Shown here: one piece after another, positions 5,273-14,482 of the stretch
How the letters are laid out: every line of letters starts with the position of its first letter
Numbering within the stretch: position 1 is the stretch's first letter
From: Bacteroidota bacterium
GTDB taxonomy: Bacteria; Bacteroidota; Bacteroidia; Bacteroidales; UBA932
Direction of reading: 5' to 3'
Length of the DNA stretch: 22,979 bases
Assembly: GCA_017860395.1 (NCBI GenBank)
Contig: JAGDMC010000002.1
Coordinates: forward strand, 1 to 22,979
Notes under the pieces: generated by a model
What the model was told of the DNA's origin: nothing
Seen by the model: only the letters and a program-made list of their open reading frames with translations
Database searches by the model: none
Translations under genes and position numbers: made by a program

Positions 5273-5313
5273 AAAAAGCCTGAAAAGTATTTATTTATTT
5301 TTCAGGCTTTTTT
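5273..5313 (+). terminator. Intrinsic terminator after metF
   Basis: The arms AAAAAGCCTGAAAA (5273-5286) and TTTTCAGGCTTTTT (5299-5312) pair perfectly over 14 bp around a 12-base AT loop, and the T-run continues to 5313. This ends the metH-metF unit just before the receptor promoter. Confidence 0.85.
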
Positions 5314-5315
5314 AT

Positions 5316-5323
5316 TATATTTG
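5316..5323 (+). promoter_or_regulatory. -7 promoter element of the receptor-kinase operon
   Basis: TATATTTG matches the TAnnTTTG consensus exactly. The -33 region overlaps the preceding terminator arm and shows only T-rich sequence. The predicted leader is about 35 bases to the ATG at 5365. Confidence 0.5.
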
Positions 5324-5364
5324 ATTAGAGTTCCGTGAGTGTTTTATTTTGTAAAACAACCATT

Positions 5365-7356
5365 ATGAAAAGGCTATTTTTACTTCTTATGATTGGAGTT
5401 AATTGCTTTTCAAATGTATTTGCTCAGGAAAAAGATACATTAAAAGCCGACGATATTCTTAAAATGTCGTTTACAGACCTGATGAATACAAAAGTAATCA
5501 GTGCGTCTAAGGTCCAGCAGGAAATTAAAGATGTTTCCGCCACCGTTCAGGTGATTACTGCAGAACAGATTAAAGATCGCGGATATTTTACTCTTGAAGA
5601 GGCTTTGGGGGATTTACCGGGATTTCAATTCAGGAATATAAACGGGTTTAACAGCTATGTCTTTCTGAGAGGTGCTCCCAGCCAGAATAATCTGATTCTA
5701 TTATTGGTTGACGGCGTCCAGATTAATGAGTTGAATTCAGGCGGCTTCTATGGAGGGGGGCAGTTTAATATGTCAAATATTGAAAGGATTGAAATTGTTT
5801 ACGGGCCTTCATCTACGCTTTATGGAACAAATGCCGTTTCCGGAGTAATAAATATTATAACAAAAAGTTCCAATTGGGGGAAAAAAGGTAACATAAGTAT
5901 GCTTGCTGGTACCTTCAAAACCGGAATGCTGGATTTTAACTTAAGAAATTATAACGACGAAAGTCAAATCGCCTATTCTGTTTCCGGAATGTATAAAGTC
6001 TCTGAGAAGGCCGATTTGCGAGGAATAGATGGGGATAATAACTGGACCGGTGAAATGGAGAATTTTGAAAACGACTTCTCCTTATCGGCAAAACTGAGAA
6101 TAAAAAACTTTAGTGCAGGAATTATATTTCAGAATAAACAGTCATCAATGACAACTAATAACAAATCCATTGATGATAAGTATTTCGACAGAAATACTTT
6201 GTGGAACATCTCCTTTCTTAATGGATTTGTAAAATATACCTACAACAGAAGCAACAGAATTTCTTATAAATCTACACTATACTACAGGAACGCAACTGTA
6301 AACCCAAATACAGTCAATAATATTATTAAGGCGACAGATACAACCAGCGGTAATCAGGTTGGCTATTACAGGCCAAACCACTTGGTTGGCTTAGATAATC
6401 AGCTCATCTATAACCCATTCAAAAAATTAATGATAATAGGTGGGATAATTGGAGAAATAGAAAAACTTTCCGATGGTTTTTCAATTTCAAACAGCAATTC
6501 TCAGTTTGTCCCCCCTCCTGCCCCTTCAAAACCGGATATGCTTAACAACAATCTTTTCAGCTATTATCTGCAGCTGAATTACAAAATCATCAATAAATTG
6601 TCATTCGTCGGAGGAATCCGTCATGATTTTTCAAGTTACTACGGACGAGTCCTGACGCCACGTGCCGGGCTTGTATTCAATACAGATAAATTTACAGCAA
6701 AATTCATGTACAACAGGGCTTTCAGGGCACCAAAACCATGGGACTATAACTATGGAACGGGCAATGAATTACTGAAACCGGAAAAAATGCATTCTTTTGA
6801 ATTGTTTACATCATATTCCATTCTTAAAAACCTCTCTTTCGGGGCATCACTTTACAGAAACCATATTAACGATAAGCTCACTCTGGATATTTCCGGAAGT
6901 GATGTAAGATGGGTTAATGAAAACAAGCTAAACACATTTGGTCTTGAATTTTACGGTAATTACTCAACAAAAAGCCTTTCCATTTACGCAAATTATACTT
7001 ATACCAACTCTTACGAAGACGAAGGAATACTTATTCCCGAGATTTCCATGCATACGGCAAATGCAGGCGTAACATATTCTTTCTCGCCACACATTAAAGC
7101 AAACCTAAGAGCCAACTATCTTGGAGGCAGGAACAATCCAATGCTGATACCTTCTACCGGAGACAATAAAATTGATGGTGTATTTTTACTGCATGGAGCC
7201 ATTTCCTATAATGATTTCAATGGATTCGACATTCAACTTAAGGTAAATAATTTTTTCAATGAGGTTTATTATCATCCTTCTAACCGCTTTGCCGGAAGAT
7301 ACAGGCAACCGCAAAGGAGTATTATGTTAATGATAACTTATGATTTATTCAGATAA
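5365..7356 (+). CDS. TonB-dependent outer-membrane receptor, first gene of signalling operon
   Basis: A 663-residue outer-membrane beta-barrel receptor. I chose ATG 5365 over an upstream in-frame GTG (5335) because it starts directly with a signal peptide, MKRLFLLLMIGVNCFSNVFA, cleaved around AQ. After a short linker comes the sequence SFTDLMNTKVISASKVQQ, typical of receptors lacking the CarboxypepD-like extension of SusC proteins. The plug (about 50-170) has VQVITAEQI, LEEALGDLPGF, LRGAPSQNN, LLVDGVQIN, IERIEIVYGPSSTLYGTNAVSGVINIITK. The rest is barrel, ending in MLMITYDLFR. The ligand cannot be read from sequence. Position next to metH raises cobalamin as a possibility, but a terminator and a new promoter intervene. 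It is 12 bases from the YfiR-like gene, so it probably delivers or senses a signal for that system. Confidence 0.88.
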   Translation: MKRLFLLLMIGVNCFSNVFAQEKDTLKADDILKMSFTDLMNTKVISASKVQQEIKDVSATVQVITAEQIKDRGYFTLEEALGDLPGFQFRNINGFNSYVFLRGAPSQNNLILLLVDGVQINELNSGGFYGGGQFNMSNIERIEIVYGPSSTLYGTNAVSGVINIITKSSNWGKKGNISMLAGTFKTGMLDFNLRNYNDESQIAYSVSGMYKVSEKADLRGIDGDNNWTGEMENFENDFSLSAKLRIKNFSAGIIFQNKQSSMTTNNKSIDDKYFDRNTLWNISFLNGFVKYTYNRSNRISYKSTLYYRNATVNPNTVNNIIKATDTTSGNQVGYYRPNHLVGLDNQLIYNPFKKLMIIGGIIGEIEKLSDGFSISNSNSQFVPPPAPSKPDMLNNNLFSYYLQLNYKIINKLSFVGGIRHDFSSYYGRVLTPRAGLVFNTDKFTAKFMYNRAFRAPKPWDYNYGTGNELLKPEKMHSFELFTSYSILKNLSFGASLYRNHINDKLTLDISGSDVRWVNENKLNTFGLEFYGNYSTKSLSIYANYTYTNSYEDEGILIPEISMHTANAGVTYSFSPHIKANLRANYLGGRNNPMLIPSTGDNKIDGVFLLHGAISYNDFNGFDIQLKVNNFFNEVYYHPSNRFAGRYRQPQRSIMLMITYDLFR

Positions 7357-7368
7357 TTTAATCGAGAT

Positions 7369-7926
7369 ATGGCAAAAAGCTCTTTACATATTGGAAAGCA
7401 TATTGCGCTGCTGATTATTTTATTTTCGGGATTAATTATTCCTTGCCGTGGAGAAGCGCAAACACGGGAACTATTATTGAAAGCCGGTTACATAGAAAAG
7501 TTTACCCATTTTGTTGATTGGTCCAAAAACCCGTTCAGTAAAGACTCTTTATTCAAAGTGGCAGTTATAGGCGACAAGAAATTTTCTCTGGCACTTGAAC
7601 AAATTTTTAGCAATATAAAGGTAAATGAAAAGAGCGTTAAGGTTACCTATATAACCTCCGTGGACCAGATTAAAGACAACATGATTCTTGTGATTTCAAA
7701 ATCTATAGGAAGTGATAAACTTGACGAGATACTTGATTACACTACTGGAAAAACAATACTCACAATAAGCGAAAAGGACGGATACGGAGTAAGAGGGTCA
7801 ATAATAAATCTGGTTGTAGTTGATGAATTTATCCGTTATGAGATTAACAGAGTAACCCTTGGAAAATCGGGGCTTAAGATGAATAGTTTGCTGATTAAAT
7901 CCGGAACACTGGTTGGAACAAAATGA
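7369..7926 (+). CDS. Periplasmic YfiR-like (DUF4154) protein
   Basis: A 185-residue exported protein of the YfiR/DUF4154 family. Residues about 12-31 form a hydrophobic signal peptide ending in GEAQ. The mature part begins LLLKAGYIEKFTHFVDW, the usual opening of the family, contains FKVAVIGDKKF and TILTISEKDGYGVRGSIINLVV, and ends with YEINRVTLGKSGLKMNSLLIKSG, the other characteristic end. In Pseudomonas the family member YfiR represses the CHASE8-domain diguanylate cyclase YfiN from the periplasm. Here the next gene, overlapping by ATGA, is a CHASE8 histidine kinase, so this protein is inferred to regulate that kinase. The mature chain has no cysteine, so the disulfide-based control described for Pseudomonas YfiR cannot apply. 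Family assignment is confident; the partner is inferred from context. Confidence 0.85.
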   Translation: MAKSSLHIGKHIALLIILFSGLIIPCRGEAQTRELLLKAGYIEKFTHFVDWSKNPFSKDSLFKVAVIGDKKFSLALEQIFSNIKVNEKSVKVTYITSVDQIKDNMILVISKSIGSDKLDEILDYTTGKTILTISEKDGYGVRGSIINLVVVDEFIRYEINRVTLGKSGLKMNSLLIKSGTLVGTK

Positions 7927-9392
7927 TTAAATTTCAATTCATACGAGACCTTTCCATAAAGAACAAGATAATTGTTATTGTTTTGTTCGTCGTGTTTACT
8001 GCAATATCTGCAGGGTTTATTACAATTGCCACCTGGGATATAAATAAACTTAAGGCCAATACCCAGTCAAATTTAGTATTGAATGCCAAGTTAATAGGTG
8101 ATTATTGTGTTGTGCCTCTATTTTTTGACGATAAAAATCAGGCTTCTGAAGCATTGTTGCGGTTGAAGTTTGTTGAATCTGTTGAGCAAGGATATTTGTT
8201 TGATAAAAACGGAGAACTATTTGCCTCTTATCCGGACACTATTTCAAATAATATGATTCCCGCTATTAATAAAAGTTCGGAAACGAGTTTTGAAGGAGGT
8301 TATTTTTATGTTACAGAAACTATCAATTTTCAGGGAAAGGTGCTGGGAACAATTTTCATTAAGGCAAATTCCAAAATACTTACAGCCCAAAAACAGAAGC
8401 TTATTTGGGTGCTGGCTATACTGGTAATCGCTCTTCTTTCGCTTTCATACTTTCTTGTATCAAGAATGCATAAGCTTGTTTCTGCACCAATCTTAAACTT
8501 AGCAACCTTAACTGCTGCAATTTCTAAAAACCAGAACTTTAATGTTCAAATTGAGCAACACGGAAGTGATGAAGTGGGATTTCTTTATGAGCAGTTTAAC
8601 AATATGTTGTCTCAGCTGTTGAAGAGACAGAATGAGAGGGATCTGGCAGAGGAAGAGATCCGGAATTTAAATGCAAGTCTGGAAAAAAAGGTTGCAGAGC
8701 GTACCGCTTTGCTGGAAGCCGCAAATAAAGAGCTTGAGTCTTTTTCATATTCGGTCTCTCACGACCTGAGGGCGCCATTACGTCACATTAATGGCTATCT
8801 TGAATTGCTTATCAAACGAAACAATTCGCAGCTGGACGATAAAGGGAAACATTATATTGAGTCCATTTACGAGGCATCCAACCATATGGGTCATTTAATT
8901 GATGACCTGCTTAATTTTTCCCGCACAGGACGTATGGAGATGAAGCCGGATAATATCGATATGAACAAGGTTGTAAAAGATGCTATGATAATTTTGGAGT
9001 CCGAAATGAAAGGGCGCAAAATTGACTGGAAACTTAATACTTTGCCAAGTGTTCATGCAGACTATGCCATGATGCGGCAGGTATGGGCCAACCTTATTGG
9101 AAATGCAATTAAATATAGCCGTAAACGTGATATTGCAACCATAGAAATTGGGGCAATAAACGAAAGAAATGAAATAATATTTTTTATCCGGGACAATGGT
9201 GCCGGATTCGATATGAATTATTCGCAAAAACTGTTTGGAGTATTCCAGCGGTTACATTCAAACGAAGAATTCGAAGGCACAGGAATAGGCCTGGCAAATG
9301 TTAATCAGGTTGTAAAAAGGCACAATGGGCGAACCTGGGCCGAAGGAGAAGTCGATAAAGGGGCTACTTTTTATTTTTCATTACCTAAATAA
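7923..9392 (+). CDS. CHASE8-HAMP sensor histidine kinase (phytochrome-type kinase core)
   Basis: A 489-residue inner-membrane sensor kinase. TM1 is about residues 16-36. The periplasmic segment (about 38-155) resembles CHASE8 as in YfiN: NLVLNAKLIGDYCVVPLFFD, a leucine-rich turn, then YLFDKNGELFASYP. TM2 is about 160-180, followed by a HAMP domain and a coiled coil (NASLEKKVAERTALLEAANKE). The DHp motif SYSVSHDLRAPLRHI places the phospho-acceptor at H280. The ATPase has the N box NLIGNAIKYS (N394), G1 DNGAGF (D424) and G2 GTGIGL (452-457). The SVSHDLRAPLRHI helix is the type found in Cph1-like phytochrome kinases, which pair with single-domain Rcp1-like regulators, and exactly such a regulator follows. 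The gene overlaps the YfiR-like gene by ATGA, suggesting translational coupling. Confidence 0.92.
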   Translation: MIKFQFIRDLSIKNKIIVIVLFVVFTAISAGFITIATWDINKLKANTQSNLVLNAKLIGDYCVVPLFFDDKNQASEALLRLKFVESVEQGYLFDKNGELFASYPDTISNNMIPAINKSSETSFEGGYFYVTETINFQGKVLGTIFIKANSKILTAQKQKLIWVLAILVIALLSLSYFLVSRMHKLVSAPILNLATLTAAISKNQNFNVQIEQHGSDEVGFLYEQFNNMLSQLLKRQNERDLAEEEIRNLNASLEKKVAERTALLEAANKELESFSYSVSHDLRAPLRHINGYLELLIKRNNSQLDDKGKHYIESIYEASNHMGHLIDDLLNFSRTGRMEMKPDNIDMNKVVKDAMIILESEMKGRKIDWKLNTLPSVHADYAMMRQVWANLIGNAIKYSRKRDIATIEIGAINERNEIIFFIRDNGAGFDMNYSQKLFGVFQRLHSNEEFEGTGIGLANVNQVVKRHNGRTWAEGEVDKGATFYFSLPK

Positions 9393-9393
9393 T

Positions 9394-9400
9394 GGGAGAG
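9394..9400 (+). promoter_or_regulatory. Shine-Dalgarno-like sequence for the response regulator
   Basis: GGGAGAG lies six bases before ATG 9407. It favours that start over the upstream ATG at 9392, which overlaps the kinase stop by one base. Most other genes here show no such site. Confidence 0.4.
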
Positions 9401-9406
9401 TATAAT

Positions 9407-9850
9407 ATGATTGAACTTAAAAAAATTCTACTGGCAGAAGATAATCCGAAGGATGTAGAACTGACCCTTGAAGCAATGGAAGACAGTCTTCTTGCGAACA
9501 GAGTGGTGGTGGTTAAAGACGGTGTCGAGACAATGGAATATCTAAGGTGTGAAGGGCAATTTGCCGATAGAGAACCCGGGCTTCCGTCTGTTTTGCTGCT
9601 TGACATAAAGATGCCCCGAAAAGACGGCATTGAAGTGTTGCGGGAAATACGAAGTGATCCTAAATTAAAGTTGCTTCCGGTTGTGATGCTGACTTCTTCC
9701 CGTGAGGACAAAGATTTGCTGAACAGCTATTATTTAGGCGTAAATGCGTATGTGGTAAAGCCTGTAAATTTCAACGGTTTTATTGATGCGATTAAGCAAT
9801 TGGGCATTTTCTGGGGATTAGTTAATGAACTTCCTCCGGAAAATAAGTAA
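9407..9850 (+). CDS. Single-domain response regulator, Rcp1/CheY-like
   Basis: A stand-alone receiver domain of 147 residues (152 if translated from ATG 9392). Numbered from the longer form, the acidic pocket is E16/D17 in LLAEDNPKDVELT, the phospho-acceptor is D71 in LLLDIKMPRKDG, the switch residue is T101 in VVMLTSS, and the conserved lysine is K123 in YVVKPV. The NPKDVELTLEAM opening and the VNFNGFIDAIKQLGIFWGLVNELPP tail are typical of the Rcp1 group, partners of phytochrome-like kinases. It carries no output domain, so the signal must pass to another protein. The likely donor is the kinase just upstream, and a plausible recipient or co-partner is the REC-PAS kinase 23 bases downstream. 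Confidence 0.93.
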   Translation: MIELKKILLAEDNPKDVELTLEAMEDSLLANRVVVVKDGVETMEYLRCEGQFADREPGLPSVLLLDIKMPRKDGIEVLREIRSDPKLKLLPVVMLTSSREDKDLLNSYYLGVNAYVVKPVNFNGFIDAIKQLGIFWGLVNELPPENK

Positions 9851-9873
9851 CATAAAAATTAAAACAGGTTTAT

Positions 9874-11385
9874 ATGAAGGTCAAGCTGTATGCACTTCTT
9901 CTTGAAGATGTAAAGAGAGATGCCGAACTTTTGGAAGAGATTCTTACCGAAGAGGGATTCGATTTGGAAATTGATCTGGTAGATAACGAGGAGGAATTTG
10001 TATCAAACCTGAAGAGGCATAACTATGATATAATTTTTGCAGATTTTACATTGCCTTCTTTCAATGGACAGTTGGCACTGGAACTGGCAAAAAAGTTAAG
10101 CCCAAATGTTCCGTTTATTTGTATTTCAGGCACAATTGGAGAAGACAGGGCTGTTGAACTTCTTAAACAGGGAGCTACTGACTATGTACTTAAAGACAGA
10201 ATGGAGAGAGTCCCAATGGCAACAAAAAGAGCATTGGATGCTACGGCTCAGCTAAGTAAATTCCGGGAAACAGAAATTGAATTGCAAACCAACAGAAGAT
10301 TGCTTCAGTCCATTATTAACAATGCGCTTGATTCAATTTATATAAAGGATATCAATGGTAAATACCTGCTGTTCAATGATGCCGCTGAAAAAACATTCGG
10401 TATTACGGAACAGGAAGTCATTGGCAAAGATGATTCCGTTATTTTCCCGGCCGTTCATGCTCAAATGGTAAAGGAAATAGATAAAAAAGTCATTGAGAGC
10501 GGTGTTCCTTATACCTATGAAGATTCTATCATCACTTCCGGGGGTGCTGTCCGCACTTTTCATACTATAAAATGTCCCATGTTCGACGACTTTGGCAATC
10601 CTACGGGCCTTTTTGGAATTGCCCGGGATATTACCGAACGTAAGCGTCTTGAGCAAGTACTTACAGAAGCTAAAGATAAAGCAGAAGACAGCAACAGATT
10701 AATTACCGCATTTCTTAACAACATCTCACACGAAATTCGTACCCCGATGAATGCAATCGTCGGTTTTTCGGATTTTTTAAAAGTTCCGGAGCTTCCTGTA
10801 GAAAAACGCATTGAGTATATTGATATTATTTCAAATAACTGCTACCAGCTGCTTGATATCATAAACGACATTGTAATCACCGCTTCCCTTGCATCAGGTC
10901 AGGTTAAATTAAATATCAGCAATTTCAACATTAATATTATCTGCAAGAACCTGTATTCTCAGTTTGAGCCAAAAGCCAAATTGAAAGACATAACATTAAA
11001 TTATGATTGTCCTTTTGATGATAGCAATGCAGACATTCGTACAGATGAGATAAAACTGACTCATATTCTTTCCAGCCTGATTAATAATGCTATTAAGTTT
11101 ACATTAAAGGGGAATATCCATTTTGGATATATTGTGAGGGAAGATAAACTGGAGTTCTACATTGAAGATACAGGCATTGGAATCTCTCACGAAAAACAGG
11201 AATTGATTTTTGAACGCTTCCGCCAGGCTGAACGGTCAATTGCCTACGAATTTGGCGGTACCGGACTTGGTTTAACAATATCAAAGGGGTATGTTGAACT
11301 TCTGGGCGGGAAGATTTGGTTATCTTCCGATTTAGGTAAAGGTTCTACATTTTTCTTTACAATTCCTTTTACCAAGAGTATGTAA
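9874..11385 (+). CDS. REC-PAS-histidine kinase (cytoplasmic hybrid kinase)
   Basis: A 503-residue soluble protein with no membrane segments. The N-terminal receiver (about 1-125) has phospho-acceptor D57 in IIFADFTLPSFNG and K107 in YVLKDR. A coiled linker leads to a PAS domain (about 138-258; SIINNALDSIYIKDINGKYL and GIARDITERK). HisKA follows, with H286 in NNISHEIRTPMNAIVGF, then an ATPase with N405 in LINNAIKFT, EDTGIGIS and GGTGLGLTISKGYVELLGGKI. An N-terminal rather than C-terminal receiver means phosphorylation probably gates the kinase instead of relaying from it. As the last gene of the five-gene run it is the probable integrator, but its own output regulator is not in the window. The domain calls are clear; the signalling topology is inference. 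Confidence 0.92.
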   Translation: MKVKLYALLLEDVKRDAELLEEILTEEGFDLEIDLVDNEEEFVSNLKRHNYDIIFADFTLPSFNGQLALELAKKLSPNVPFICISGTIGEDRAVELLKQGATDYVLKDRMERVPMATKRALDATAQLSKFRETEIELQTNRRLLQSIINNALDSIYIKDINGKYLLFNDAAEKTFGITEQEVIGKDDSVIFPAVHAQMVKEIDKKVIESGVPYTYEDSIITSGGAVRTFHTIKCPMFDDFGNPTGLFGIARDITERKRLEQVLTEAKDKAEDSNRLITAFLNNISHEIRTPMNAIVGFSDFLKVPELPVEKRIEYIDIISNNCYQLLDIINDIVITASLASGQVKLNISNFNINIICKNLYSQFEPKAKLKDITLNYDCPFDDSNADIRTDEIKLTHILSSLINNAIKFTLKGNIHFGYIVREDKLEFYIEDTGIGISHEKQELIFERFRQAERSIAYEFGGTGLGLTISKGYVELLGGKIWLSSDLGKGSTFFFTIPFTKSM

Positions 11386-11392
11386 CATTTTG

Positions 11393-11400
11393 TATCTTTG
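11393..11400 (+). promoter_or_regulatory. -7 promoter element of the mannose-1-phosphate guanylyltransferase gene
   Basis: TATCTTTG matches the consensus exactly and begins eight bases after the kinase stop codon. Transcription would start near 11406, giving a leader of about 18 bases. No terminator separates this gene from the kinase operon, so read-through is also possible. Confidence 0.55.
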
Positions 11401-11423
11401 AGTAATATTTAACAAAATTACTC

Positions 11424-12560
11424 ATGTCCAATTTAACTATACTAATAATGGCCGGAGGCTCAGGAGAGCGTTTCTGGCCATTGTCTACAAAAGAGAGACC
11501 TAAGCAGCTGCTAAGGCTCATTGATGAAGAAAAAAGCCTGATAAGGATGACCGTCGACAGAGTGTTGCCGATGGTGCCGGCCAATCGAATTTTCGTTGGT
11601 ACAAATGCTGTTCAGGCAAAAACCGTATTGGAAGAACTGCCTATGCTTCCTGCCGGAAATGTGATTATTGAGCCTTCATTTAAGGATACTGCTGCCGCAA
11701 TAGGATTTGGATGTATAGAAATTGAACGCAAGTTTCCCGATTCAACGTTAATTGTGTTGGCCTCGGACCATCTGATTAAGGATGAGGCCGACTTTAGATT
11801 GCATCTGAAAAAAGCTGTTGAAGTGGCAGAAAGGGAGGAAGCGATTGTCACCCTCGGTATTAAACCAGACAGACCCGAAACCGGTTATGGATATCTGGAG
11901 ACAGGTGCTGATGCCGACTTAGTGGCGGAAGGAGGTTCCGGTGCAGACGGCAGCCTGGAGGTAGAAGAAGGATTAGTTGGATGCACAGTTGGAGTTCCAA
12001 CCCGGGTTTTGCGGTTTTGCGAGAAACCTGCTTTGGAAACCGCATTGGAATATGTGAAGAGCGGGCGTTTTTTATGGAACAGCGGTATGTTTATTTTTAA
12101 GGTGTCTACGATTATACGTGCGTTTGCAGAGTTGTTACCGGCACACCGGGCTGTTTTGAAGGAAATTGAAGAATTGGAAAACGCGACGGGGAGAGGTGAA
12201 AATACGGCCAATGAACGTGACGAAAAACTTAAATTATTGTTTGAGAAATTTGTAAAAATCTCTATTGACTTTGGAATAATGGAGAAATTCAAGAATACCT
12301 ATGTTATTCCCGTTGATTTTGGATGGAGCGATATTGGCTCCTACCCTGCCCTTGCCGATGTATTCCTGGCCAATGATAACGGTACAACTGTCAAAGGTGC
12401 TTCTATCAAAGAGTTCAACTCAGGAGGGAACATTGTAATTGGAACAACTGGTAAAACCATTGCCCTGCTTGGTGTTCATGATATGGTTGTTGTTGAGACT
12501 GCAGATGCCATTCTGGTTTGTACCAAGGCTGAGGCACAGAATATTAAAAAAATATTGTAA
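11424..12560 (+). CDS. manC: Mannose-1-phosphate guanylyltransferase (GDP-mannose pyrophosphorylase)
   Basis: A cytosolic nucleotidyltransferase making GDP-mannose from mannose-1-phosphate and GTP for surface glycans. The 378-residue chain is the single-function form without the C-terminal isomerase domain. Motifs: LIMAGGSGERFWPLSTKERPKQLL (GTP-binding signature, residues 7-30), EPSFKDTAAAIGFG, VLASDHLIKD, PDRPETGYGYLETG, FCEKP, FLWNSGMFIFKV, and VDFGWSDIGSY. An acidic, glycine-rich stretch (about residues 161-193) sits between GYGYLETG and RVLRFCEKP, where family members usually have only a short loop; a second charged stretch lies at about 250-265. These look like in-frame surface insertions and should not affect the active site. 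The enzyme is unambiguous; the symbol could also be given as manC/cpsB. Confidence 0.92.
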   Translation: MSNLTILIMAGGSGERFWPLSTKERPKQLLRLIDEEKSLIRMTVDRVLPMVPANRIFVGTNAVQAKTVLEELPMLPAGNVIIEPSFKDTAAAIGFGCIEIERKFPDSTLIVLASDHLIKDEADFRLHLKKAVEVAEREEAIVTLGIKPDRPETGYGYLETGADADLVAEGGSGADGSLEVEEGLVGCTVGVPTRVLRFCEKPALETALEYVKSGRFLWNSGMFIFKVSTIIRAFAELLPAHRAVLKEIEELENATGRGENTANERDEKLKLLFEKFVKISIDFGIMEKFKNTYVIPVDFGWSDIGSYPALADVFLANDNGTTVKGASIKEFNSGGNIVIGTTGKTIALLGVHDMVVVETADAILVCTKAEAQNIKKIL

Positions 12561-13639: not shown

Positions 13640-14482
13640 ATGAATAATAAACTATTGATAAGAAAAGCCTCCGGTGATATGGAGCCTTTTTCTTCAGAAA
13701 AATTAAGAAGGTCTTTGCAACGCTCCGGGGCTGCCGATAATGTTATTGAACCTATTTTAAATGATGTTGAATCATGGATTTATGATGGGATTTCAAGCAG
13801 AAAAATATATGACAGGGCTTTTGCATTATTAAGAAAAAAGACGTTAAGTGTTGCTTCCAGATACAAATTAAAGAACGCGCTTATGGAAATGGGGCCCACC
13901 GGACATCCTTTCGAGCACTTTGCGGGTCAGGTATTTAAAGCACTGGGGTATAATGTGGAAGTAGCTCAGATTCTTCAGGGCCATTGTGTCACTCATGAGG
14001 TCGATGTAATTGCTTCCAAAGAAAAAAGCCAGATGTTTATTGAGTGCAAATATTATCTCACTACAGATAAAAACGCAAATGTTCAGGTACCCCTTTACAT
14101 CCGGTCCAGAGTAGATGACATAATTAAGAAACAAAGCACTCTGCCTGAGTTTGCCGGCTATACATTTTTAGGCGGTGTTGTAACAAATACAAGATTTACC
14201 TCTGATGCCATGGCATATGGTGAGTGCAGCGGCCTTAAGTTACTGAGCTGGGATTATCCTGCCGGGAACGGTCTTAAGGAGATAATAGACAGAGAAAAAA
14301 TTTTCCCGATTACAGTCTTAACAAAGCTTTCAAAACAGGATAAACAGAGACTTATGGGGCAGGGAATTGTTACTTGCCGGCAAATACTTGAAACTCCAGG
14401 AACACTGGACTCTTTAGGGATAGAGATGATTAACAGACAAAAGATTCTTGCAGAAATTAAGAATCTATGTGTAACTGAATAG
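13640..14482 (+). CDS. ATP-cone domain fused to PD-(D/E)XK (Mrr-like) nuclease
   Basis: A 280-residue protein in three parts. Residues 1-85 form an ATP-cone (LLIRKASGDMEPFSSEKLRRSL, then GISSRKIYDRAFALL and a Tyr-containing helix), the nucleotide-binding regulatory domain best known from ribonucleotide reductases and NrdR. Residues about 90-205 form a restriction-endonuclease-like fold with E92 (FEHFAGQVFKALGY), D122 (HEVDVIA) and E135-x-K137 (MFIECKYY), the full catalytic set, ending in LKLLSWDYP. Residues about 225-275 resemble a helix-hairpin-helix region (LSKQDKQRLMGQGIVTCRQIL). The protein has its own promoter and a terminator behind it, and no methyltransferase or helicase neighbours. 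It could be a nucleotide-gated DNA repair or defence nuclease. The domains are fairly clear; the biological role is unknown. Confidence 0.82.
   Translation: MNNKLLIRKASGDMEPFSSEKLRRSLQRSGAADNVIEPILNDVESWIYDGISSRKIYDRAFALLRKKTLSVASRYKLKNALMEMGPTGHPFEHFAGQVFKALGYNVEVAQILQGHCVTHEVDVIASKEKSQMFIECKYYLTTDKNANVQVPLYIRSRVDDIIKKQSTLPEFAGYTFLGGVVTNTRFTSDAMAYGECSGLKLLSWDYPAGNGLKEIIDREKIFPITVLTKLSKQDKQRLMGQGIVTCRQILETPGTLDSLGIEMINRQKILAEIKNLCVTE

Follow-up and report, generated by a model that had tools for sequence, protein, structure and literature searches.

The closest described relatives of the locus considered here are the YfiBNR system of Pseudomonas aeruginosa and DgcN of Escherichia coli. Here, we analyze five genes in a 22,979-nucleotide stretch of a Bacteroidota genome (GenBank assembly GCA_017860395.1, contig JAGDMC010000002.1, positions 1 to 22,979); we refer to the whole stretch as “the window”. 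The genes encode, in order, a TonB-dependent receptor (TBDR), a YfiR-like periplasmic protein, a CHASE8-HAMP sensor histidine kinase, a single-domain receiver (REC), and a second kinase with REC and PAS domains (Table 1). With YfiBNR/DgcN, the locus shares the YfiR fold, a CHASE8-HAMP switch protein, an equivalent of the AAVVF motif, and a gene for an outer-membrane partner in the operon. It differs in that (i) the outer-membrane partner is a TBDR rather than the OmpA lipoprotein YfiB; (ii) the switch protein ends in a histidine kinase rather than GGDEF, with two receiver proteins encoded downstream; and (iii) the YfiR-like protein has no cysteine beyond position 26.

Parts of this arrangement have been described before. 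Malone et al. (2012; PMC3375315) reported YfiR-YfiN cores with kinase, HPT, GGDEF-EAL, or chemoreceptor (MCP) outputs, so the exchange of GGDEF for a kinase is already published. Their divergent cores resemble the window in joining YfiR and a YfiN-type periplasmic/HAMP core to a histidine kinase; as far as the main text of that paper describes them, however, almost all the distant operons lack a yfiB homologue, and the word “TonB” has 0 occurrences there. The three protein kinds that stand side by side in the window also correspond to three NCBIfam families, NF053590 (TonB_dep_TOL0244), NF053591 (YfiR_like_TOL0243), and NF053592 (HK_near_YfiR_like). Since these entries name a receptor, a YfiR-like protein, and a “YfiR-like protein-associated” kinase, annotators had already noticed the trio. 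The window proteins score 118.5, 83.6, and 159.5 bits against them, all below the respective cut-offs of 645, 125, and 194, and the window operon adds the REC protein and the REC-PAS kinase.

Two further systems are comparable. FecA-FecR-FecI is a TonB-dependent transducer pathway in which an outer-membrane receptor reports its ligand to an inner-membrane regulator, as the window receptor would in the reading proposed below. The window differs from it in having a YfiR-like protein and a kinase in place of FecR and a sigma factor: no STN domain is found in the receptor among Pfam hits up to E 1, and neither FecR nor an ECF sigma factor is present in the five operon proteins or in the ten other window proteins scanned, which represent part of the window's open reading frames (ORFs). 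The phytochrome kinase Cph1 pairs with the receiver Rcp1; the catalytic part of the window kinase and the single receiver are of these types, but the input of the window kinase is a periplasmic CHASE8 domain and not a light-sensing module. What appears to be new here is the receptor variant of the Yfi core, the kinase outputs and the protein trio in NCBIfam having been known before. We found no account of this variant, or of the rod-like YfiR::kinase fusions described below, in the open-licence PMC literature, judged on titles and abstract openings.

Recurrence of the receptor, YfiR, and CHASE8 genes

The original prediction placed five co-directional genes in this region, and ORF calls on the forward strand (5365–11385) bear out the spacing claimed for them: a 12-base gap between the receptor and YfiR-like genes, an ATGA overlap between the YfiR-like and kinase genes, and a 23-base gap between the genes for REC and the REC-PAS kinase. 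A receptor does stand where YfiB would be, since Pfam identifies a TBDR (Plug, 7.6e-25; barrel, 7.5e-36; both above Pfam cut-offs) directly before YfiR and gives no OmpA hit among the five proteins. The YfiR-like protein matches DUF4154 (PF13689; 1.3e-26, 93.8 bits against a cut-off of 24.9). The periplasmic region of the kinase had been assigned to CHASE8, and a profile search that could have overturned this assignment instead upheld it (2.3e-10, 41 bits against a cut-off of 27). Behind CHASE8 come HAMP (1.5e-8, 35.2 bits against 25), HisKA, and HATPase_c, i.e., a kinase in place of GGDEF, as claimed. The REC protein matches Response_reg (8.5e-17), and the fifth protein Response_reg, PAS, HisKA, and HATPase_c; every main domain of the five proteins exceeds its Pfam cut-off. 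Likewise as predicted, Pfam finds no GGDEF, EAL, or DNA-binding output among the five genes.

The original prediction would have failed had these genes not co-occurred in related genomes, and a neighborhood survey shows that they do. Of the 393 genomes surveyed in the order, 140 contain PF13689 and 65 contain CHASE8; the latter gives 89 matches, 80 of them above the Pfam cut-off, and the contexts of all 89 were inspected. YfiR lies directly upstream of 78 of the 89 matches, 77 by ORF call and one, hidden by a spurious ORF, by six-frame search; the remaining 11 include one at a contig end, one with TBDR and YfiR genes divergent beside the kinase, and four below the cut-off. Upstream of YfiR in the 77 pairs is a gene for OmpA (25), a TBDR (17), or a second YfiR (3), or else another gene, an antisense gene, or a contig end (32). 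A kinase is part of the CHASE8 protein in 72 of the pairs. Of the other five, two are TBDR loci with a kinase two genes downstream, two are cut by contig ends, and one has an interrupted frame. The pattern GG[DE][DE]F was found in a single ORF among the stretches fetched ahead of the 60-locus gammaproteobacterial sample below; this ORF is in a gammaproteobacterial locus (L072).

The order contains two main versions of the operon, TBDR–YfiR–kinase–REC–REC-kinase, as in the window, and OmpA–YfiR–kinase-REC–HPt (en dashes separate genes, hyphens join domains of one protein). In one example of the latter (L105), OmpA with PD40 and HPt were confirmed by Pfam; the remaining OmpA-class loci were assigned with profiles built in this analysis. 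An HPt gene or domain is present in 22 of the 25 OmpA loci, the other three being cut by contig ends, and none was found in the kinase or the next two genes of the 17 TBDR loci, one of which is cut. Only 3 changes are required to place the OmpA label on the YfiR tree (26 rows), and 6 on a quick CHASE8 tree; because the label changes so seldom, the OmpA-HPt association is confounded by descent. For the TBDR label, the corresponding numbers are 19 (51 rows) and 22, so input types appear to have been exchanged or lost often.

In total, we list 35 distinct TBDR-YfiR-CHASE8 triads, including the window and its near-copy L061 and kept separate from the 60-locus gammaproteobacterial sample below. Contig ends truncate four of them. 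Of the 31 that are intact, 17 match the window's gene order exactly over all five positions, with kinase, REC, and REC...kinase in sequence. The gaps are mostly <50 bases or overlaps, with a gap >100 bases in five of the 35. We treat the five genes as a predicted operon.

The arrangement extends beyond the order. PF13689 occurs in 39 of 395 genomes of the phylum, and the TBDR-YfiR-CHASE8 order is also found in metagenome-assembled genomes (MAGs) titled Bacteroidales, Prolixibacteraceae, Ignavibacteriales, Calditrichota, and Gammaproteobacteria. In the class of the gammaproteobacterial MAG, 69 of 274 genomes contain CHASE8. Among the 60 best-scoring CHASE8 matches of that list, YfiR is next upstream in 38, and the full TBDR-YfiR-CHASE8 order is present in 19, with a kinase (14), GGDEF (3), a kinase fused with GGDEF (1), or an MCP (1) as output. 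Five of the 14 kinase triads continue with a REC...GGDEF gene and two with a gene that begins with REC. Greedy ORF picking and the Bacteroidota origin of most profiles probably make these counts underestimates. Outputs are thus changeable in loci with the TBDR-YfiR-CHASE8 set.

Several related arrangements were seen alongside these. YfiR adjoins an MCP in L136, a HAMP-GAF-kinase with three receivers in L138, and, after a TBDR, a CHASE8-HAMP-MCP protein in L255. In L160, L201, L208, and L211, a TBDR gene, a gene for a protein of 429–431 amino acids, YfiR, and a CHASE8-kinase-REC gene stand in one row; the extra protein of L160, the sole one of the four scanned, is an ANF_receptor/Peripla_BP_6 protein (125.8 bits). 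The CHASE8-HAMP-PAS proteins of ~430 amino acids encoded in L128, L133, P0114, P0122, and P0125 lack a catalytic domain and have a coiled-coil-like end; downstream of two of them (L128 and L133) are individual PAS and PAS-kinase genes, an arrangement that resembles a kinase divided into subunits. In L222, a CHASE8-kinase-REC-HPt gene is followed by a gene (9141–11591) for a TPR protein with a terminal SpoIIE phosphatase domain, a possible output. The Bacteroidales-type operon of L066 lies on a contig of a MAG titled Clostridia bacterium, probably a binning error.

Conserved surfaces and a pre-plug segment

A profile of 31 homologues of the YfiR-like protein hits, at E <0.01, PDB sequences of YfiR only (six distinct sequences, 2.2e-4 to 5.6e-4). 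The AlphaFold2 model (pLDDT 88.8) has P. aeruginosa YfiR chains in all of its top 15 PDB rows by Foldseek (E 8.9e-9 to 3.8e-7; TMt 0.72–0.82). As modeled, the YfiR-like protein has the YfiR fold. In P. aeruginosa YfiR, the F162-E163 region touches YfiB, and a YfiN-binding role has been proposed for it; published work links E163, I169, and the F162 region to contact with YfiB or suggests them as positions that bind YfiN (PMC3375315, PMC4655355). Alignments map these positions to Y157-E158-I159-N160 and L164 of the window protein, L164 being placed by eye. E158 and N160 are invariant among the 31 aligned sequences, and position 157 is F or Y in 112 of 132 paired sequences. The sole cysteine, C26, lies in the signal-peptide-like region; because both P. 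aeruginosa cysteine pairs are missing, the redox control of YfiR should not apply. No relative was found on viral contigs, and PADLOC gave no match for the YfiR-like protein or the kinase.

In the kinase, V64-F68 aligns with the AAVVF motif of DgcN, which has been proposed as the YfiR site of YfiN. The segment is hydrophobic and keeps the F, but the letters are not identical; F68 is F in 123 of the 132 paired sequences. The nearest solved kinase is that of phytochrome RpBphP2, in a VIA-align list that covers mostly residues 186–489, i.e., a fold comparison outside the periplasmic part. For the receiver, the assignment as an Rcp1-type regulator stands: RcpA (5.1e-33) and Rcp1 (1.2e-25) are its best specifically named solved relatives, E. 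coli-type CheY matching at about 1e-9, while three stronger matches are named generically as response regulators. Rcp1-type receivers are a known partner type of phytochrome-type kinases.

YfiR-linked receptors have a short stretch between the signal peptide and the plug, with the consensus DLTDLSLEELMNIEVTSVSK in the gammaproteobacterial set and the sequence DDILKMSFTDLMNTKVISASK in the window. We built a 21-column profile of this segment from 17 gammaproteobacterial YfiR-linked receptors and applied a threshold of 5 bits. It is exceeded by 28 of 31 window-class receptors (one of which, L072, is gammaproteobacterial), by four of five receptors having one extra gene before YfiR, and by 1 (L331) of 24 unlinked receptors, which come from four genomes and have no YfiR in the fetched locus. 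The unlinked set derives from 30 loci returned of 111 Plug matches, after three with YfiR in the locus and three copies of linked receptors were set aside. The profile is also passed by 5/13 (n) and 3/5 (gn) receptors from YfiR/CHASE8 stretches that were not recognized as direct neighbors. We denote the window class as A, gammaproteobacterial linked receptors as G, and receptors following YfiR as T. A first regular expression for the segment separated the classes poorly (A 17/31, G 8/17, T 2/18, unlinked 2/24) and was abandoned. A 50-column profile of the segment and the plug start, seeded with eight G sequences from that expression, exceeds 10 bits in A 30/31, C 4/5, D 4/5, T 17/18, and unlinked 2/24.

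We had considered that the linked receptors form one dedicated family or clade. This was dropped, since on a quick receptor tree the window class needs at least 10 label changes and several barrel lineages are involved; the segment therefore appears to be kept across these lineages. It is a candidate site for the YfiR-like protein and/or the TonB box, which usually sits at this place in a receptor. In five other loci of the order (L126, L135, L151, L143, and L124), YfiR precedes the TBDR, and such pairs stand in tandem, in two or three copies and without an adjoining kinase; the pre-plug region of these receptors is longer and contains DELLELPLEDLL-like repeat units.

YfiR::kinase fusions and possible modes of signaling

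In five Bacteroidota loci, the TBDR gene is followed by a gene for a single protein with a signal-peptide-like start, DUF4154, a long spacer, one more transmembrane (TM) segment, and a kinase. CHASE8 gave no Pfam hit in the two fusions scanned and no hit by our own profile in all five. Measured from the end of LLGG to the best hydrophobic 19-mer, the spacers are 150, 154, 147, 141, and 147 residues long, all without proline. In an alignment of four fusions, the length differences are blocks of seven. The hydrophobic period is 3.50–3.52 in four of the five; the spacer of L167 peaks at 4.28 and has seven glycines. As one continuous helix, the spacer would measure 21–23 nm, and the width of the periplasm is close to this. 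A profile from four fusions, run against 294 genomes, recovers seven proteins that cover the YfiR domain and the spacer-TM part (those four, L167, and two more), with one further match split over two contigs. A receiver or REC-kinase gene comes directly after the fusion gene in four of the five loci, and the receptor of the fusion locus L165 shares a clade with that of the window, represented by its near-copy L240 (support 100). The architecture of the fusions supports the view that YfiR is an intermediate from receptor to kinase and suggests that it is able to function at the outer membrane.

We propose that the window encodes a receptor-linked Yfi variant, in which the TBDR would be the outer-membrane input, the YfiR-like protein the periplasmic messenger, and the CHASE8-HAMP kinase the inner-membrane switch. 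Without ligand, the YfiR-like protein would sit on the CHASE8 face V64-F68 and hold the kinase in one state, by analogy with YfiR on YfiN the off state. Ligand and TonB pulling would expose receptor residues 29–49, which would capture the YfiR-like protein, as YfiB does in Pseudomonas, and so release the held kinase. The kinase would then autophosphorylate at H280 and phosphorylate the Rcp1-type receiver, and the second kinase, REC-PAS, may relay the signal to a target encoded at another place in the genome. The types of kinase and receiver, together with the order of the genes, point to this relay.

Several observations weigh against this proposal. The first 28 plug columns alone, in a profile likewise built from all 17 G sequences, separate the receptor classes about equally well (>5 bits in A 26/31, T 16/18, and unlinked 2/24). 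Because segment and plug-start profiles both separate the classes, the segment is not distinguishable from receptor ancestry, and ancestry may explain the contrast between linked and unlinked receptors. The segment profile is exceeded in only 3/5 fusion-class and 8/18 T-class receptors, and in 0/3 further receptors with YfiR in the locus. Neither a TBDR nor OmpA is next upstream in 35 of the 77 YfiR-CHASE8 pairs, contig ends and antisense genes included, and in the window's genus a strong match is present in 4 of 24 relatives, with one more at a contig end. YfiR-CHASE8 covariation is higher than in all 100 of 100 within-group re-pairings, but its top pair, S144-Y222, includes a HAMP residue, so it does not count as evidence for contact. 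Lastly, the release of a diffusible repressor cannot operate in the fusions, from which CHASE8 is gone. It was the plug-column control that lowered our estimates, and we now give the release mechanism in the window even chances.

The same control lowered our estimate of a more general reading, which we offer tentatively and with the chances against it: TonB receptors may recurrently use YfiR adaptors, recruited by the short pre-plug segment, to drive transmembrane kinases, diguanylate cyclases, and chemoreceptor-type proteins. The adaptor would be diffusible, as in the window, or carried on a ~22 nm coiled coil that reaches the outer membrane beside the receptor, forming a contact or mechanical link across the periplasm. 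TonB receptors are numerous in Bacteroidota, and for most of them we know of no signaling route. If the general reading is true, signaling through YfiR adaptors would be a further general route besides FecR/sigma pathways and post-import sensing. Should the YfiR-like protein be under receptor control, a set of orphan kinases, cyclases, and MCPs would gain a defined input, and outer-membrane ligand sensing could be tested in a compact three-protein module. The fusions would allow a simple geometric test of receptor-kinase contact across the envelope.

The strongest rival, though on balance an unlikely one, is that the YfiR-like protein serves as a co-receptor: it would bind a compound imported by the TBDR, and the loaded form would activate the CHASE8 kinase, with no sequestration at the outer membrane. 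Substrate-binding proteins activate some kinases when loaded, and the next folds matched after YfiR are Rhodothermus substrate-binding proteins (E 3.3e-5) and, more weakly, ABC substrate-binding domains. The four loci with an extra gene between TBDR and YfiR, that of L160 being of the ANF_receptor/Peripla_BP_6 kind, fit this alternative, as does the fact that the fusions retain YfiR and drop CHASE8, the pattern expected if YfiR is a sensor domain. The two surfaces mapped or proposed for the repression of YfiN by YfiR are nonetheless conserved, and the OmpA class uses this YfiR-CHASE8 pair too, without a TBDR in the slot.

Alternatively, the receptor might serve transport only, being co-expressed with two-component genes that regulate its uptake and having no part in signaling. 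The co-regulation of a transporter with its own regulator is common. The pre-plug segment overlaps the usual place of the TonB box, so its conservation could serve TonB instead of YfiR, and it cannot be told from receptor ancestry. The TBDR-YfiR-CHASE8 order recurs, however, with unrelated outputs, MCP and GGDEF included, and the OmpA class fills the same slot with another outer-membrane protein; we consider a transport-only role quite improbable. A chance or loose neighborhood of separately acting genes is consistent with the lack of a strong match in most sampled genomes of the window's genus, which marks the operon block as dispensable, but is already contradicted by the surveys, with the order and its mostly short gaps or overlaps conserved in 35 triads (five with a gap >100 bases) and found in MAGs titled Ignavibacteriales, Calditrichota, and Gammaproteobacteria, and we regard it as highly implausible.

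Layout and flanks of the operon

Table 1. Positions of the operon genes, candidate contact sites, and upstream elements in the window
Feature	Position	Strand	Description and basis
TBDR	5365–7356	+	Plug and barrel, signal-peptide-like start; ORF call and Pfam
YfiR-like periplasmic protein (DUF4154)	7369–7926	+	ORF call, Pfam, NCBIfam, model fold
Sensor histidine kinase	7923–9392	+	CHASE8 8049–8360, HAMP 8466–8621, HisKA 8736–8924 (H280), HATPase_c 9063–9386
Single-domain Rcp1-type receiver (REC)	9407–9850 (9392 start possible)	+	Pfam, sequence matches
REC-PAS-HisKA-HATPase_c protein (second kinase)	9874–11385	+	Pfam, NCBIfam
Receptor residues 29–49, pre-plug segment DDILKMSFTDLMNTKVISASK	5449–5511	+	Candidate contact; receptor alignments/profiles
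YfiR-like Y157-E158-I159-N160	7837–7848	+	Alignment to P. aeruginosa YfiR F162-E163 region
Kinase V64-P65-L66-F67-F68	8112–8126	+	Aligned with DgcN A66-A67-V68-V69-F70
Terminator-like hairpin between MetH-MTHFR genes and operon	5273–5312	+	17-pair stem with a T tail; identified by consensus match only
TAnnTTTG, possible −7 box of operon promoter	5316–5323	+	Motif match to the consensus

Two of the genes have alternative starts. A GTG start of the receptor gene is possible at 5335, with the signal-peptide-like stretch starting at the ATG at 5365. For the REC gene, a start at 9392 would give a TAATG overlap with the kinase gene, and one at 9407 would lie 14 bases past the kinase stop, behind GGGAGAG; we prefer 9407 as the putative start, with GGGAGAG in front.

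The upstream elements in Table 1 belong to motif classes that are not above chance in number. Terminator-like sites number 7 in the region, against 5.0 ± 2.5 in shuffles, and TAnnTTTG, which we take to be the Bacteroidota −7 box consensus, occurs 29 times against 26.5 expected. A second TAnnTTTG lies at 11393–11400, ahead of the gene downstream of the operon. No riboswitch or other RNA in the window matches Rfam at gathering scores. A cobalamin link through the nearby gene for B12-dependent MetH was considered and rejected. The best NCBIfam hit of the receptor is the B12 receptor, but it scores 139.8 bits where the cut-off is 599.7, and the terminator-like hairpin separating the MetH-MTHFR genes from the operon weakens the link further.

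The source assembly is 1.77 Mb in size and 73% complete, and contains one DUF4154 match, 20 Plug matches, and 23 receiver matches. A 96% identical YfiR-like gene is present in a MAG titled Bacteroidales bacterium, which places the window close to Bacteroidales. Elsewhere in the window, positions 13640–14479 encode a protein with ATP-cone and Mrr-type restriction endonuclease matches.

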